Positions 8,831 through 41,609 of a stretch of DNA of 64,000 bases are shown in pieces. Every line of letters starts with the position of its first letter. Position 1 is the first letter of the stretch. The translations under genes were made by a program, and so were the position numbers. Location of the stretch: NCBI GenBank assembly GCA_039801085.1, contig JBDRTY010000001.1:124001-188000 (forward strand), written 5' to 3'. A model generated the notes under the pieces. It had not been told where the DNA came from. It made no database searches and saw nothing but the letters and a program-made list of their open reading frames with translations. This stretch comes from a candidate division WOR-3 bacterium (GTDB lineage: Bacteria > Hydrothermota > Tepidihabitantia > Tepidihabitantales > Tepidihabitantaceae).

Positions 8831-11806
8831 CTAACGGACGAGTATTGCCCGTTCGGTTGTGTTCATTCCCGGTGTCTGGAGCCGGATGAAGTAGACACCA
8901 GGGGTAAGTCCTTTTGCGGACCAGCGGAATTCATTTGTGCCCGGTTGCGCGGTGCCTTCGTAGATTGAGCCTACCGTTCTGCCGGAGATGTCGTGGACCG
9001 TCAGCCGGACCGGTCCGGCAGCAGGCAGGTTGAGCCGGATCGTCAGGTTGCGGGTGAAGGGGTTGGGGATGATGGAGAGGGGGGAGTTGAGCGGTGCCGG
9101 TGCAGATGCCAGTTCGGAAATTGCCACATTCCGGTCAAACCAGGACTGGGCGCTGTCCGCATTTGCCCGCGCCGAGGTCTCGTCCGCACCACCGACAAAG
9201 GCAACCGCAAACCGGTAGGTCTGACCGACCGGCAGATCAAACGGACCGCTGGAGACCAGCACTGACCAGTCATAAGCCCGGTTGGAGTTGCGCTGGACAA
9301 TCGTGCCGTTGAGGAAGCGGAATTTCATATTGTCGGTCATTGCCGAGTCCGGATAGACATAGATCGCATGGTCAACTCCAGAGAGGTTGGCAAAGGACTG
9401 GGGCGCGAGAATCTTGACACCGACGGTCGGGTTGGCGGTGGTGGACTGGCGCATGTAGGTGAAGCGGCGGACCGTGTCGGAGAACAGGGTGTTGGTGGTG
9501 GAGGAGGAGCCGATGTCAAAGTCGGCGAAGATGCCGGCATAAAGACCGTTGACCGGGTTTGAGCCCTGGTTCTGGATGTCAAAGACCATGACCACAAAGT
9601 CGTCGTAGCCGGGCTGGGCGCTCATATAGGTGTTCTGGGTGATCTTCAAGCCTTTGGGTGTCGGATGTCCCGCATCGGAATAGGAGCCGCGGAAATGTTC
9701 ATCACCATAGACCGGCGGTGTGACCGGACGCAGACTGTCAACCGGCCGGAGGTCGGTGTTGGGGGTTCCGGATGCAGGATTGCCGTAGTGGTGATCTGCT
9801 ACATAGGAGGGCGAGTTGCCAACTGCAAAGCTGCCGTAATAAAGGGCGGTCGCTGAGGTTTTGGGATAACAGAAGCCGGAGCCGGAGCCGTCCGGGATGT
9901 CATAACCGATTGAGCCCTGACAGGAGACGGTCAGTTTGCAGTAGCCGGTGTCATGGGTCATGAGCAGCTGACCCGGAATCGGCGGTTCACCAATGATGAG
10001 GCTGATTCTGAACTTCGTTGCATAGTCGGCGCTGTCGCCGGAGACAAACAGGGTGCAGGGGATGGTGGTGCCGGGCGGAATGGTGCTCAGGGCTGAGACT
10101 GCCAGCGGGTCGGTGGTGTTGGTCCGCTCCTCGCCCGACGGGATGTTGCCCCAGGTGGCAAGCGAGTCGGTGACCGTCAGCCGGCTGTCATAGGCACGCA
10201 GAATGCCGCTGGTGTTGTTGCAGGCAGCACCACCGGAGTTGCGCAGGGTGATGCGCAGCCGCGCCTGTTCACCCGGGTCAACCCGGCCGTTGTTGTTGCC
10301 ACCAGGCGGCGAGTCGTGAATCGCAATCGTGCGCAGGACCAGCATCGGACCGCCCGAGCCGGTGATGTAGTTGACCGCTGCCAGCGCATCAATTCTGCCC
10401 GCACCGAAGTCATTGTCCTTGCCGCCAGGTCCCAAGTCCACCGCGGTCACCTCAAGGATTGAGTCCACCACCGCCGGGGTCAGGTTGGGGTTCTTGGAGA
10501 GCATCAGGCAGACCGTGCCCGCAGTGTGCGGGGTCGCCATTGAGGTGCCGTCCATGCTGGTGTAACCGCCGCCAACCCGGCAGGAGATGACCGCCACCCC
10601 GGGCGCACTCACATCCGGCTTGGTCAGTCCGGGCGGATAGACATAGTCGTTATAGGGCGCAACCGTGCCCCAAGTGACCGGACCCCGGCTGGAGAAGGAG
10701 GCGATCGCATCGGTTGAGTCGGTCGCACCGATCGAGATGATCCCGGAGAGGGTGCCGGTGCCGGTGTTCTGCGGGTTCCACCAGGGCGGCGGCACATTAC
10801 CCGGACAGCGGCAGGAGTTGGGCGGAGTGAGACTGCGCTCGTTGCCCGCCGCCACAATCTGGATCACACCCGCCGCATTGACATTGTCCGCCACCTGCCG
10901 CCAGGTCGCCTGGTGCGGGTTCCAGGAAAGCATCCAGCCCAAGGACATCGTGTAGAGGTCCGCACCGTTGGCCGGTGAGAGCGGGGGCGAGACCACAAAC
11001 TGCATCGCCTGCCAGCACTGGCTCTCCGCCACCGAGTCCGCTACCGTCCGCACCCGGCAGACCATGATCCGGGCATCCGGCGCCACCCCGCACTGGGTGC
11101 CCGAGGTGCCATCACTGGCAACCGTGCCTGCCGTATGGGTGCCATGCCCGTTCTGATCCATCGGGTTGTTGTTGTTGCTCTCGAAGTTCCAGCCGTGATA
11201 GGGGTAGTTGGGGTCCTCCCACATGTGGTCTGCCAGGTCGGGATGGGTGTAGTCACAGCCGGTATCAATGTGCCCGCAGACCACACCCTGCCCGGTGTAG
11301 CCCTGTGCCCAGACCTCAGGCGCCCTTATCTTGCGCACACCCCAGGTCGCATCATACTGCGGCTCTGCGGGCGCACCCGGCTTCTCGAGCAGGTCCGGAC
11401 ACCAGGCAAGATCATAGTTGACATAGTGGACATCTGCCCGCTGCGAAAGCTCCCGGATCACCGCCGGCGTCGCCTCGCAGGCAACCGCATTGACAATCCA
11501 GATCGAGCGGATGTCCCGGACCAGGCCCTGTTGCTCCTTCTCCTCGAGATAGCTCAGGATGGAGGACTGCTCCCTTCGGGCAAACTCGCCGAGAATCTCT
11601 GCCACCCGCACCCGGCGCTCCCGCCGGCTCAGACCGTCAACCTGCGAGAAAAGCAGCCGGGTGTCATACTGGTTTTTCAGAACGATGTGAACCGGCAGCT
11701 TCTGGTCAGCCGCCGCGGTGCTCAGATGCCGCTCCAGCTCCGGACTGATCATCCCGAAGCCGAAGGCAAGGAGCAGAAGTAGAGTTGTCATGATGGTTTT
11801 TATCAT
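8831..11806 (-). CDS. Secreted subtilisin-like serine protease (S8) with C-terminal sorting-like domain
   Basis: 991 residues. A signal peptide (about residues 1-22) and a propeptide-like region (about 25-135) precede the peptidase S8 domain. The catalytic residues are in place: Asp181 (HIDTG), His221 (HGTHTAG), oxyanion Asn322 (AAGNE) and Ser422 (GTSMATPH). CARDB/Ig-like domains and a long beta-rich region fill residues about 490-900. The last 80 residues (PNPFTRNLTIRL, DISGRTVGSI, GVYFIRLQ, ending AILVR) are a FlgD-like/type IX sorting-type domain. The gene has its own promoter, a ribosome site (GAGGAG) and a strong terminator, so it is a monocistron. It is likely an extracellular or surface protease for protein degradation. 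Confidence 0.95.
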   Translation of the reverse strand: MIKTIMTTLLLLLAFGFGMISPELERHLSTAAADQKLPVHIVLKNQYDTRLLFSQVDGLSRRERRVRVAEILGEFARREQSSILSYLEEKEQQGLVRDIRSIWIVNAVACEATPAVIRELSQRADVHYVNYDLAWCPDLLEKPGAPAEPQYDATWGVRKIRAPEVWAQGYTGQGVVCGHIDTGCDYTHPDLADHMWEDPNYPYHGWNFESNNNNPMDQNGHGTHTAGTVASDGTSGTQCGVAPDARIMVCRVRTVADSVAESQCWQAMQFVVSPPLSPANGADLYTMSLGWMLSWNPHQATWRQVADNVNAAGVIQIVAAGNERSLTPPNSCRCPGNVPPPWWNPQNTGTGTLSGIISIGATDSTDAIASFSSRGPVTWGTVAPYNDYVYPPGLTKPDVSAPGVAVISCRVGGGYTSMDGTSMATPHTAGTVCLMLSKNPNLTPAVVDSILEVTAVDLGPGGKDNDFGAGRIDALAAVNYITGSGGPMLVLRTIAIHDSPPGGNNNGRVDPGEQARLRITLRNSGGAACNNTSGILRAYDSRLTVTDSLATWGNIPSGEERTNTTDPLAVSALSTIPPGTTIPCTLFVSGDSADYATKFRISLIIGEPPIPGQLLMTHDTGYCKLTVSCQGSIGYDIPDGSGSGFCYPKTSATALYYGSFAVGNSPSYVADHHYGNPASGTPNTDLRPVDSLRPVTPPVYGDEHFRGSYSDAGHPTPKGLKITQNTYMSAQPGYDDFVVMVFDIQNQGSNPVNGLYAGIFADFDIGSSSTTNTLFSDTVRRFTYMRQSTTANPTVGVKILAPQSFANLSGVDHAIYVYPDSAMTDNMKFRFLNGTIVQRNSNRAYDWSVLVSSGPFDLPVGQTYRFAVAFVGGADETSARANADSAQSWFDRNVAISELASAPAPLNSPLSIIPNPFTRNLTIRLNLPAAGPVRLTVHDISGRTVGSIYEGTAQPGTNEFRWSAKGLTPGVYFIRLQTPGMNTTERAILVR

Positions 11807-18302: not shown

Positions 18303-18334
18303 TATAAAAAACCGGGCTCAGTTTGAGCCCGGTT
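18303..18334 (-). terminator. Rho-independent terminator of the selenoprotein gene
   Basis: An 11-bp perfect stem (arms 18324..18334 and 18310..18320, AACCGGGCTCA) with a 3-nt loop, followed on the minus strand by a run of T. It lies about 20 nt after the stop codon at 18355 and just upstream of the smc promoter. Confidence 0.9.
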
Positions 18335-18354: not shown

Positions 18355-19137
18355 TCAGCGCAGAACCGCCGTCTTGTACCGGATGATATACCGACCGTCG
18401 TTCAGTTCGTAGAAGTAAAGACCATTTGGTACCAAGTGGTGGTGTTCGTCAGTGGTGTGCCAGACAGCGGAATGAACTCCAGCAGGCAGGTTGCCTTCAA
18501 CCAGTGTGCCGACAAGTTTCCCGGAAGCTGAGAAGACTTTCAGAGTAATAGTGCGTGTTTCCGGCAGCGAAAAACGGATGGTCTGGTTCCGGTTTGCCGG
18601 ATTGGGGGCTACCTGATTGAATTCCGGTCGCATTGTCGGCTTTTCCTCAGAGACAGCAGTGAGGTATGGTTCGATCCAGCTACGAATCACCGCCTCATTA
18701 AACCCTTCCATTGAGCCAACGACCACCCCGGCCGTGTCAATGACATAATTCAGCGGGATGTAGCCATTCATCCGGTATGCGGTCCAGCCGGCTCCGGCAT
18801 CGCGGAAGAAGGGGTAGCTGTATGCGCGGGCATACACCTTTACCACATTTTCCATATCCTGCCAGAGATTGATTGCCAAAGGCAGATACCCCTGACTGCC
18901 GTATTCATCAAACATTGCTTGTATTCGCGGCAACTCCGCGAGACAGGATGGTCAGGTGGACTGCCAGAAGAAGAGTTGAATTACATGTCCACGGTATTCC
19001 GCCGGGATGGTGTGAGTCTGCCACGCGGTATCCGGGACGGAGATGTTGGGTGCCGGATCACCGGGCTGAGGCCATGCCCAGAGCAAAACCGGTGCTGTCA
19101 GCACCAATAACAGTATGAGTACCTTAAGCTTCACCAA
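18355..19137 (-). CDS. Exported TlpA/thioredoxin-like selenoprotein (in-frame UGA) with C-terminal sorting-like domain
   Basis: The frame runs 260 residues from a TTG at 19137 (or GTG at 19134, after AAGGAGG) to 18355 if the single internal TGA (18952..18954) is read as selenocysteine. A signal peptide (about residues 1-21) is followed by a TlpA/redoxin domain: DPAPNISVPD, HVIQLFFWQST, then Sec62-Pro-Ser-Cys65, LAELPRIQ, and the cis-Pro segment GYIPLNYVIDTAG. The TGA stands exactly at the first Cys of the usual WxxWCxxC site. The reading frame and conservation continue unbroken after it, and a SECIS-like hairpin follows. The last 80 residues (VAPNPANRNQTIRFSL, ASGKLVGTL, NGLYFYEL) are a FlgD/type IX-like domain. 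It probably acts as an extracytoplasmic thiol oxidoreductase or peroxidase. The alternative is a nonsense-mutated gene, which is less likely. Confidence 0.85.
18920..18945 (-). promoter_or_regulatory. Predicted bacterial SECIS element
   Basis: After the UGA and a 10-nt spacer, UCGCGG (18936..18941) pairs perfectly with CCGCGA (18925..18930) around the 5-nt loop AGUUG. UGU (18943..18945) and ACA (18920..18922) can extend the stem below a small internal loop. The apical loop starts 16 nt after the UGA and contains G and U, in line with known bacterial SECIS geometry (fdhF has a similar distance). Confidence 0.75.
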
Positions 19138-19157
19138 TATGACCTCCTTTTATAGTT

Positions 19158-19185
19158 ATGATAACAAATCGTGGTATTGTGTCAA
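19158..19185 (-). promoter_or_regulatory. Promoter of the selenoprotein gene
   Basis: On the minus strand TTGACA (19180..19185), 16 bp, TATCAT (19158..19163), then a short leader with AAGGAGG. It shows the gene is transcribed separately from parA-parB-M23 upstream. Confidence 0.65.
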
Positions 19186-21642: not shown

Positions 21643-24600
21643 TCACCTTCTCACGATGACAAGCTTCCGAGTTGTAGTTGTAGATGATGTTCTGTCAATG
21701 TGCAAGATGTAAATTCCGGGATTTAAAGTGAAAGCCGGAAAGGGGATCGTGCCACTGCTGGTGATTGCCGAGTGAGTAGTCATAACTTTTCTTCCCGCCG
21801 GATCATAAATTTCAATACATGCATTTTTCAACAATTGGGAGCCGAGGAGATTGGACAATTCAGGTGAACTGAGGCAGGATGGTAAGATGACTTCAACATG
21901 CAATCGTTGAGGACGGGGAAGACTGTCCGGTTTGTCCTGTGCTATGATGGCAGGATATTGAACCTGCTGGTTTGCTACATAGCGCCATAATTCCAGAGTT
22001 TTATTTCCTTTCAGCGCAAAGAATGTACCGCCTCCGAAGTGAGTGATATCACCACCGCGGTTGACGCGCTTTTTTTTGCCCGTGGAGCCGAACTGCGGTA
22101 GCGTATCAAGTTCAGACCAGCTGCGGGTAAGAGGATCGAATTTCCAGAATTCGCAGGTGTTTCCACCTTTCAGAGCATAGATGTTGCCGTCATAAAAAAC
22201 GGCACTGCCGCCATCTCGTGATTTTTTATTTTTTCCAGTTTGTCCGCTGGAAACCGGAATTCCGGGGAGTGGAGTGGAGCTCCATTGGTGGGTTGAGAGA
22301 TCAAATGTCCATAATTCGTGATACTTTGCCTTATGGGCATAAATCGTGGTTCTTTGATCATATACGAGCCAAGATCCTTGTCCCCATCTCGGTTTGACCC
22401 CGGCAGGAGCATCGGGCATGCGCTGCCAATCTGGAGCAGTAATATTAAAGCGGTAGAATTCCTGGCTCCCGCCTTTCAGGAGGTAAACATATCCGGTATC
22501 GTTTTCGGTCACATACACCAGATCAGTACCCCCCTTTACCTTTTTACCATCCGGTCCTTGAGGGATATCCGGCAGCTGGCGCCAGCTGTTAGCGGGAATT
22601 TCGTAACACCAGAATTCAAATGTGCCGTTGCCTTTTGCCATAAAAATTACTTGGTTACTGCCGACCGCTGAAGTCCCCTTTTTAGGAAACCGGCGTGCGG
22701 GTCCTTCTGGAATGGGCATCAGCATTGTCCATGAATCACGAATCGGATCGTAGGCATAAAAATCACCGGTTTTGTTTCCTTTGGCAGCATATATCATTCC
22801 GTATTCGCCAGCACTGGCAAGCCAGCCTCCATCGCTGACCGGACTGCCGGAGGGCGCGGCAGGCATTGATAGCACTTCCTGCCATCCATTATTCCAGAGC
22901 GGAGTAACGATAAAATTGGCGGACCGGCAGTTGTTTGCGGATACTTGATCATACGGGTAATAAGTACTGCAGCGAACAACATATGTGCCGCTGGAGCTCA
23001 AAGTGCAGGGTCTAAAAATTACTGATGGTTCTGAATCTCCAGGAGCCATGGTGATATCCTGCCGGTCAATGTAAATACGCGTGCCGGCAGAGGATTCGAT
23101 TATCAGCCATGCTTGGAAAGTTGCATTCACATTGCCGTAATTTTGCCAGCATGCAGCTGGGGTAATAACAGTGCCTGGCGTATAGCTTCCGCTCGGGACA
23201 AGGATTTTTGCCACCCCGACATCCCGGACACGGATAAAAAAGTTTACTGAGCATCGATCGTTTTCTGGATGCTGGTCCTGTGCCAGCCCGGTAGAGCAGG
23301 TCACTTGCCAGCTTCCCCGTTGCTGAGCGGTAAAACGAGGAAAGACAATTTCGTAATCAGTGTTGGGCTGATGGAACTGCACAGTTTCGCTGCGGGCGTA
23401 TTCTGAGCCGATGCGCATAAAAACCGGGTAAGTTTCAATTCGGCTGCCATGATTAAACAGTTTTACCACCGGATAGACTGCCGTACCCGAATCAACCGTT
23501 CCTGCCGGGACCAGAATCGAGATACAACTTACATCTCTTGAGACTACTTCACAGGAGCCAATATAAGGAAGGATGTTTTTCCCACTAACCACGATCTGCA
23601 GTCTGCCCGGGGATTGCGGGTGGATTGGGAATGTTACCTGTCCCATGCCATCTGTTTGTCCATATGCATAGATTAATGTGTCCATTGATATGCATACCTG
23701 GGCGCCGGGGAAAGGAGTCCCGTCCACTTTGACCGTAATGGTAAAATTCTGTTGTGTCATCGGTACAACTGTATCATGGATGACATCAGGTTTCAGCGGT
23801 GCATCGATCCAGACATTGAGCTCCGGGTCACCCAAGAGATTCCACTCAAGGTAGCGAATGCTGTCGCCGTAGATTGAATCGACCCAATGGCGGCCTCTCA
23901 GAGCAGCGGAGCCGAGACGGTATTCTCCTTCTTCATAAAGGGCGTGGAAGAATCCCCGGTAACAGGCGCTGCGATAACGCGAAAGATGGGTGCCACTCCG
24001 GGTAGTGCCGAAGAAGGCAATTGCTCCTCCCAGCGCTGAGGGTGAGCCGGCGCGAACAAACTGATCCCCGTACATGGTTTCCCCGGGAGAAAGGGTAATA
24101 GTGGCGCAGGTGGCGCTGACGACGACCGGCATTTTGATGCCATTCTGCCAGCTTGCCGGTGTGACGGCATTGAAAGGTGAGTACCAACTGCCAACACCAT
24201 TGCCGCGATAGGTAATGAAAATTCTGCCATCACTGCCTGCATAATTAACCTGCCGGCTGGAATCTCCGTACAGGTTACAGAGACTTTCAGCCAGCAGAAA
24301 ATTTCGTTCCTGCCAGTATGCCCGCAGGATCTGAGCATCTTTTTGATAGTAGGAATCGGGCGGAACGTCTTCGCGGACGACGGTCGTCCCTTTACGGAAC
24401 CACAGTGTATCAATGCCGGCAGGGGGATTTTCATACGCCAGAACCTTGGCGACGAAAGTGCTGCATTCTCTCGGATTGTGAGCGGGAAATCTGCCTACCG
24501 GGATTTCAATTCTGAAGTCACCGGTCATATTACCGTAATAGTTGTCATTGTTGTTAGTGAAACTGGGAATGTATTCAGGAGAACCCAGCAGGAGAATATA

Positions 24601-24849
24601 CTCGGGAGGAATGTCCCAGTAATTCCAGGCATAACGGATATAGGAATGAATCTGACTGGTATCTGTTCCGGTTTCTGAGGTAGTAACTATTTTTGCCAGC
24701 ATACCTTTGGCAGTTTTCCAACGGGCAAGCGGTTCGGCAAAGGAAGCAAATGCATCGGGAGTGATGATGAGATACCTTGCACCGGTTGCAGCAGTACTTG
24801 CCGAGTACAGGATTAAGATAATAAAGAATATGCATTTTTTAGTTCTCAC
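21643..24849 (-). CDS. Secreted C25 (gingipain)-like protein with Ig, Kelch-like and sorting-like domains
   Basis: 1068 residues. Domain order: signal peptide (1-22); C25-type caspase-like domain (about 24-355: EYILLLGSPEYIP, GRFPAHNPRE, VVSATCAT); a short Ig-like domain; two CARDB-like domains (about 440-640); about six Kelch-type blades (660-965), each ending in a form of LKGNxTxEFWxY; and a FlgD/type IX-like C-terminal domain. The nucleophile position is occupied by Cys248, but the place of the family's catalytic His (GHG) reads GNG (Asn217). Activity is therefore doubtful and it may be a binding or structural protein. The start is a GTG with AGGAGG upstream. Confidence 0.85.
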   Translation of the reverse strand: MRTKKCIFFIILILYSASTAATGARYLIITPDAFASFAEPLARWKTAKGMLAKIVTTSETGTDTSQIHSYIRYAWNYWDIPPEYILLLGSPEYIPSFTNNNDNYYGNMTGDFRIEIPVGRFPAHNPRECSTFVAKVLAYENPPAGIDTLWFRKGTTVVREDVPPDSYYQKDAQILRAYWQERNFLLAESLCNLYGDSSRQVNYAGSDGRIFITYRGNGVGSWYSPFNAVTPASWQNGIKMPVVVSATCATITLSPGETMYGDQFVRAGSPSALGGAIAFFGTTRSGTHLSRYRSACYRGFFHALYEEGEYRLGSAALRGRHWVDSIYGDSIRYLEWNLLGDPELNVWIDAPLKPDVIHDTVVPMTQQNFTITVKVDGTPFPGAQVCISMDTLIYAYGQTDGMGQVTFPIHPQSPGRLQIVVSGKNILPYIGSCEVVSRDVSCISILVPAGTVDSGTAVYPVVKLFNHGSRIETYPVFMRIGSEYARSETVQFHQPNTDYEIVFPRFTAQQRGSWQVTCSTGLAQDQHPENDRCSVNFFIRVRDVGVAKILVPSGSYTPGTVITPAACWQNYGNVNATFQAWLIIESSAGTRIYIDRQDITMAPGDSEPSVIFRPCTLSSSGTYVVRCSTYYPYDQVSANNCRSANFIVTPLWNNGWQEVLSMPAAPSGSPVSDGGWLASAGEYGMIYAAKGNKTGDFYAYDPIRDSWTMLMPIPEGPARRFPKKGTSAVGSNQVIFMAKGNGTFEFWCYEIPANSWRQLPDIPQGPDGKKVKGGTDLVYVTENDTGYVYLLKGGSQEFYRFNITAPDWQRMPDAPAGVKPRWGQGSWLVYDQRTTIYAHKAKYHELWTFDLSTHQWSSTPLPGIPVSSGQTGKNKKSRDGGSAVFYDGNIYALKGGNTCEFWKFDPLTRSWSELDTLPQFGSTGKKKRVNRGGDITHFGGGTFFALKGNKTLELWRYVANQQVQYPAIIAQDKPDSLPRPQRLHVEVILPSCLSSPELSNLLGSQLLKNACIEIYDPAGRKVMTTHSAITSSGTIPFPAFTLNPGIYILHIDRTSSTTTTRKLVIVRR

Positions 24850-41334: not shown

Positions 41335-41609
<275 letters not shown>

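Follow-up and report, generated by a model that had tools for sequence, protein, structure and literature searches.

Does an in-frame TGA in a thioredoxin-like gene of a candidate division WOR-3 bacterium encode selenocysteine (Sec), and where would such an enzyme act? The gene lies in a 64,000-nucleotide stretch of contig JBDRTY010000001.1 (positions 124,001 to 188,000; hereafter the window) and runs for 260 codons on the minus strand, from 19137 to 18355 of that stretch. When TGA is translated as U, the single in-frame UGA (18954..18952) becomes residue 62, in the context FFWQSTUPSCLAELPR, and the frame is closed by a second TGA. The initial annotation, which did not state the strand, had the coordinates right and had placed the TGA at the first Cys of a thioredoxin CxxC motif, which is where it falls. 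We assign a probability of about 0.8 to the reading in which the gene encodes a secreted selenoenzyme whose C-terminal tail most likely delivers it, via the type IX secretion system (T9SS), to the cell surface or outside. We conclude that the product is a genuine exported selenoprotein and, very probably, T9SS cargo, with a localisation predicted from sequence.

Fold, putative export signal and sorting tail

Homologues were collected in two rounds, from 60 relatives first, followed by 147 of the phylum's genomes. The thioredoxin domain of the window protein belongs with the AhpC-TSA/ResA group: it scores above the PF00578 cut-off, its model matches ResA structures in the PDB (template modelling (TM) score 0.82-0.89 to target), and it combines the UxxC site with an invariant P128, the conserved Pro opposite that site. 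The score against the ResA family NF002854 was 41.8 bits, compared with a curated cut-off of 170, which makes the protein a relative of ResA and not ResA itself. Bacillus ResA (PDB 1st9 and 2f9s; TM 0.86-0.88 to target) shares the fold and the position of the CxxC but has Cys, is membrane-anchored and lacks a tail. From its modelled ResA fold and UxxC site, the window protein is predicted to be a thiol-disulfide oxidoreductase that uses a selenol. The n-, h- and c-regions of the signal peptide, judged by eye, are typical in full-length family members, a pattern that the window protein shares, and the model places an N-terminal helix at residues 2-19. A short, low-confidence linker separates the modelled thioredoxin domain from a C-terminal β-sandwich.

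The sorting-like domain first proposed for the C-terminus was recovered as a T9SS type-A tail: TIGR04183 matched residues 176-254 of 260 with 29.5 bits against a cut-off of 23, and the same tail was found in 18 of 19 aligned family members. The genome encodes SprA (483 bits within a 1883-aa frame), ten matches to the PorV family, and a PorU-like C25 protein (404 bits) directly before a PorV gene. It also holds 93 TIGR04183-type tail matches, about 80 of them above the cut-off, the window protein included. Taken together, the tail matches and the SprA, PorV and PorU-like genes make surface delivery by the T9SS probable on sequence grounds.

Several results pull the other way. The Pfam model Por_Secre_tail scored 22.2 against a cut-off of 27, and the tail could act as an ordinary immunoglobulin (Ig) domain; the PorU-like protein falls just below its curated cut-off (404 compared with 420); and a search of the genome for GldM gave no match, as it did in controls too. 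A rival reading is an exported selenoprotein that stays in the periplasm or at the inner face of the outer membrane, its tail serving as an Ig domain with a structural role and carrying no signal for secretion. ResA/TlpA relatives do act in the periplasm, the tail also exceeds the FlgD_ig cut-off (28.2 compared with 27 bits), one relative (L048) has no recognisable tail, and GldM gave no match. Such retention is nevertheless unlikely, given the near-universal tail among the aligned members, the T9SS genes just listed, and the sharing of the tail by some 80 proteins, among them window proteases (C25 and S8) of the T9SS-cargo type. The C25 (gingipain-type) peptidase at 21643-24849 has Kelch repeats and a Por_Secre_tail-like end. 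The subtilase (S8) at 8831-11806 scores above the Pfam cut-off for Por_Secre_tail and is likely another T9SS cargo.

Reading of the UGA codon

The reading of the UGA as Sec draws on its conservation, on the RNA hairpin that follows it and on the Sec machinery of the genome; all of the computational checks suggested in the initial annotation spoke for it. TGA occupies the exact codon in three dozen homologues from independent assemblies, distributed over families f1, f7, f16, f32 and f34 of the phylum. In a few other homologues, the codon is replaced by TGC (genomes G008 and G012), by Asp in a tandem copy (G016) or by Ser in a copy (G138). Because the non-Sec forms are nested inside Sec groups, Sec looks to be the common and ancestral state in these sequences, with about four losses within a tree whose deep forks are not all well supported; the count of six changes on the tree takes in the outgroup and L061, a Sec row that was scored as 'other'. 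The closest named record, from WOR-3 isolate SKW181, is 96% identical over the domain, and a scan of 84,980 species with a single peptide pattern found close relatives in WOR-3 only.

The hairpin described in the initial annotation (6 bp, 5-nt loop, 10 nt after the UGA) was confirmed, and its covariance across homologues identifies it as a bacterial Sec insertion sequence (SECIS) element. Its apical loop begins 16 nt after the UGA, the lower limit of the 16-37 nt published for bacterial SECIS elements (PMC10778597), and the loop, AGUUG, contains a G, fitting the description of these elements as having a small loop with G (PMC1088965). Standard pairs fill every one of the 144 pair cells (100%) across 24 distinct Sec homologues. 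The covariation score was 0.301, compared with 0.074 in shuffles, and none of 500 shuffles reached it; in four of the six pairs both partners have changed, and shifting the partner by 1-3 columns destroyed the pairing. Compensation extends across codon types, with Leu (U) accompanied by CGA, Arg (G) by CGC and Asn (A) by CGU. In most instances, replacement of Leu by Arg or Asn is offset by a synonymous change of an Arg codon; in another case, Ala to Glu is offset by a change of a Pro codon from CCG to CCU. Of roughly 60 synonymous codons tested in the domain, the three most frozen, GCG, GAG and CCG, all lie in the hairpin; the gene is a textbook example of a SECIS element constrained within a coding frame. 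The hairpin is lost in two of three close homologues without Sec (the G008 Cys and G016 Asp forms); in the G012 Cys homologue it is still present, one of its pairs being a wobble, which is what a recent Sec-to-Cys change would be expected to leave. The more distant families f34 and f16 have different hairpins after the UGA.

All of selA, selB, selC and selD, for which a search had been proposed, are present in the genome: SelA (570 bits), SelB (374 bits), a tRNA-Sec with a UCA anticodon (74 bits) and two copies of SelD. One SelD adjoins selB (G000:C1:520859-521764; L067, L153) and is apparently a selenoprotein itself: its SCAGUASK stretch contains an in-frame TGA, and the hairpin that comes after has an AGUUG loop identical to that of the window gene; the second copy, elsewhere, has Cys. 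A gene with a T9SS tail (G000:C2:365910-366104) precedes the tRNA-Sec gene (L001, G000:C2:365764-365854) on the same strand, with about 56 nt between them.

Three observations fit less well. As a single sequence, the hairpin has an unremarkable energy (z -1.8, with 11 of 200 shuffles as good), so the case for it rests on covariation. The G012 homologue has Cys although that genome encodes SelB, from which it follows that Sec is not strictly needed, and G013 and G015, fragmented or incomplete assemblies whose homologue is the Sec form, gave no SelB above the cut-off. Co-occurrence of Sec and SelB is therefore imperfect. On the supporting side, the genome with the other Cys homologue (G008, CPYC) has no SelB above the cut-off.

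Could the UGA be read as some other residue (a recoded stop, Trp or Gly), or mark the meeting of two separate genes? A TTG at 18933 would open a frame of 192 aa, but the split would land in the middle of the active site of one fold, relatives carry TGC in place of the TGA, and a full Sec machinery is present. Of 35 long frames in the window that do not overlap, 14 end in TGA, as does the window gene itself; TGA is thus an ordinary stop here, as the initial annotation had held. These explanations are very improbable. A decayed gene or a base error, with the TGA a nonsense mutation or a misread base in what was once a CxxC protein, could not be ruled out from the window by itself and has Cys homologues in its favor, but it is refuted by the identical TGA in independent assemblies (hence no base error) and distant genera, by the covarying hairpin, and by strong purifying selection past the UGA (ratio of nonsynonymous to synonymous rates 0.05-0.16 in the thioredoxin part and 0.14-0.33 in the tail where estimable, against five orthologues).

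For the secreted selenoenzyme, the following sequence of events is proposed. SelB and Sec-tRNA(UCA), both recognized from sequence as is the RNA element, would bind the hairpin after the UGA, and the codon would be read as Sec. The N-terminal signal peptide would export the protein, and the ResA/TlpA-type thioredoxin domain would fold. Sec62-Pro-Ser-Cys65 could then form and break a selenenylsulfide, so that the enzyme would work as an extracytoplasmic thiol-disulfide (selenol) oxidoreductase. Beyond a flexible linker, the type-A tail would most likely direct the protein to the SprA/PorV translocon and so to the cell surface or outside. There it may take part in disulfide handling, reducing or reshuffling the disulfides of many other surface proteins, or it may handle oxidants.

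Known relatives, family architecture and genomic surroundings

The peroxiredoxin (Prx)-like thiol:disulfide oxidoreductases with a UxxC/UxxU site (pfam00578) are among the kinds of selenoprotein that PMC9312934 lists. Like the window protein, they have an AhpC-TSA/ResA-like domain, Sec first in UxxC and a SECIS element directly after the UGA; unlike it, they are not described with a sorting tail, nor is the WOR-3 family named, in the literature searched. The NCBIfam families WAxxUGC_long (NF041054) and TUGYCR (NF053656) likewise join a ResA-like domain to Sec and gave weak matches to 11 and 6 of 19 members, respectively, but their Sec motifs differ (UGC and TUGYCR) and the window protein falls far below their cut-offs. 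Bacteroidota T9SS type-A cargo (TIGR04183) shares the tail, above the curated cut-off, and the SprA, PorV and PorU-like context; here, however, the cargo is a selenoprotein and the host is WOR-3. In further bacterial selenoproteins, among them the TonB receptor FCYXU, SaoB, the MtrB/PioB-type GSU2204 and ExtKL (PMC13188914), Sec likewise sits in the outer membrane or elsewhere beyond the cytoplasm, but their folds and export routes are unrelated to those of the window protein.

The literature searched yielded no link between Sec and type IX secretion, no sorting tail on such a selenoprotein, and neither the WOR-3-wide family nor its longer architectures; the locus joins two systems not found together there. 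It is fairly likely that WOR-3 systematically puts Sec enzymes on the surface via type IX secretion, through a phylum-wide family of several architectures (a short form, versions carrying extra repeat domains, and tandem copies), and that extracellular selenol chemistry is a trait of the lineage. The use of Sec beyond the cytoplasm would then stably characterize an entire uncultured phylum. Standard annotation splits such genes at the UGA, and the link between their signal-bearing and tail-bearing halves is consequently lost from databases.

The longer architecture has about 475 residues, with two additional repeat domains before the FlgD-like tail, and tandem copies of the family occur in G016, G137 and G138. 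One such copy (L045:2085-2858, in G016) has Asp at the Sec position (DSTC) and no hairpin, stands beside a Sec form and is possibly an inactive paralogue. In L052 (G016:C84) the site reads U-S-G-S, with Sec retained and the resolving Cys changed to Ser. In the Sec homologue L145 (G131:C43), the frame breaks after the thioredoxin domain and the tail lies in a different frame, through a frameshift or an assembly error. Four remote, larger proteins (L149, L150, L151 and L053) have a UPLC thioredoxin-like site before a tail or near the C-terminus, with a hairpin of its own, and are likely another exported selenoprotein family.

The features of the gene are collected in Table 1. The promoter, ribosome site and terminator attributed to it at the outset were all located, the promoter-like site by a consensus scan that alone is no evidence of function. 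A plus-strand reading of 18355..19137 was rejected for want of an open frame there.

Table 1. Features of the selenoprotein gene and its flanks, in window coordinates
Feature	Position	Strand	Details
Selenoprotein gene	18355..19137	minus	260 residues with UGA = Sec; stop TGA, then TAA
Signal peptide, residues 1-21	19075..19137	minus	LVKLKVLILLLVLTAPVLLWA|W; from sequence, with the cleavage site judged by eye
ResA/TlpA-type thioredoxin domain, residues 25-160	18658..19065	minus	PF00578, 47.7 bits; ResA in PDB by sequence and fold
UGA codon for Sec, residue 62	18952..18954	minus	First position of UxxC; TGA at the equivalent codon in phylum homologues
Bacterial SECIS hairpin	18925..18941	minus	UCGCGG-AGUUG-CCGCGA; 6 bp (18941..18936 with 18930..18925), loop AGUUG 18935..18931
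T9SS type-A sorting tail / FlgD-like Ig domain, residues 172-260	18358..18624	minus	TIGR04183, FlgD_ig; β-sandwich, model strands 172-258
Promoter-like site	19158..19185	minus	TTGACA (19185..19180), 16 nt, TATCAT (19163..19158); consensus scan, 11/12 matches
Ribosome binding site	19143..19150	minus	AAAGGAGG, 5 nt 5' of TTG start; from sequence
Intrinsic terminator	18310..18334	minus	11 bp, loop 3, then TTTT; scan

Gene neighbors vary among families (ParA, ParB and M23 near close relatives, others elsewhere), and a functional partner is therefore not nameable. A scan of the window at Rfam gathering thresholds gave a sole match, a large bacterial signal recognition particle (SRP) RNA at 41339-41605 (130 bits).
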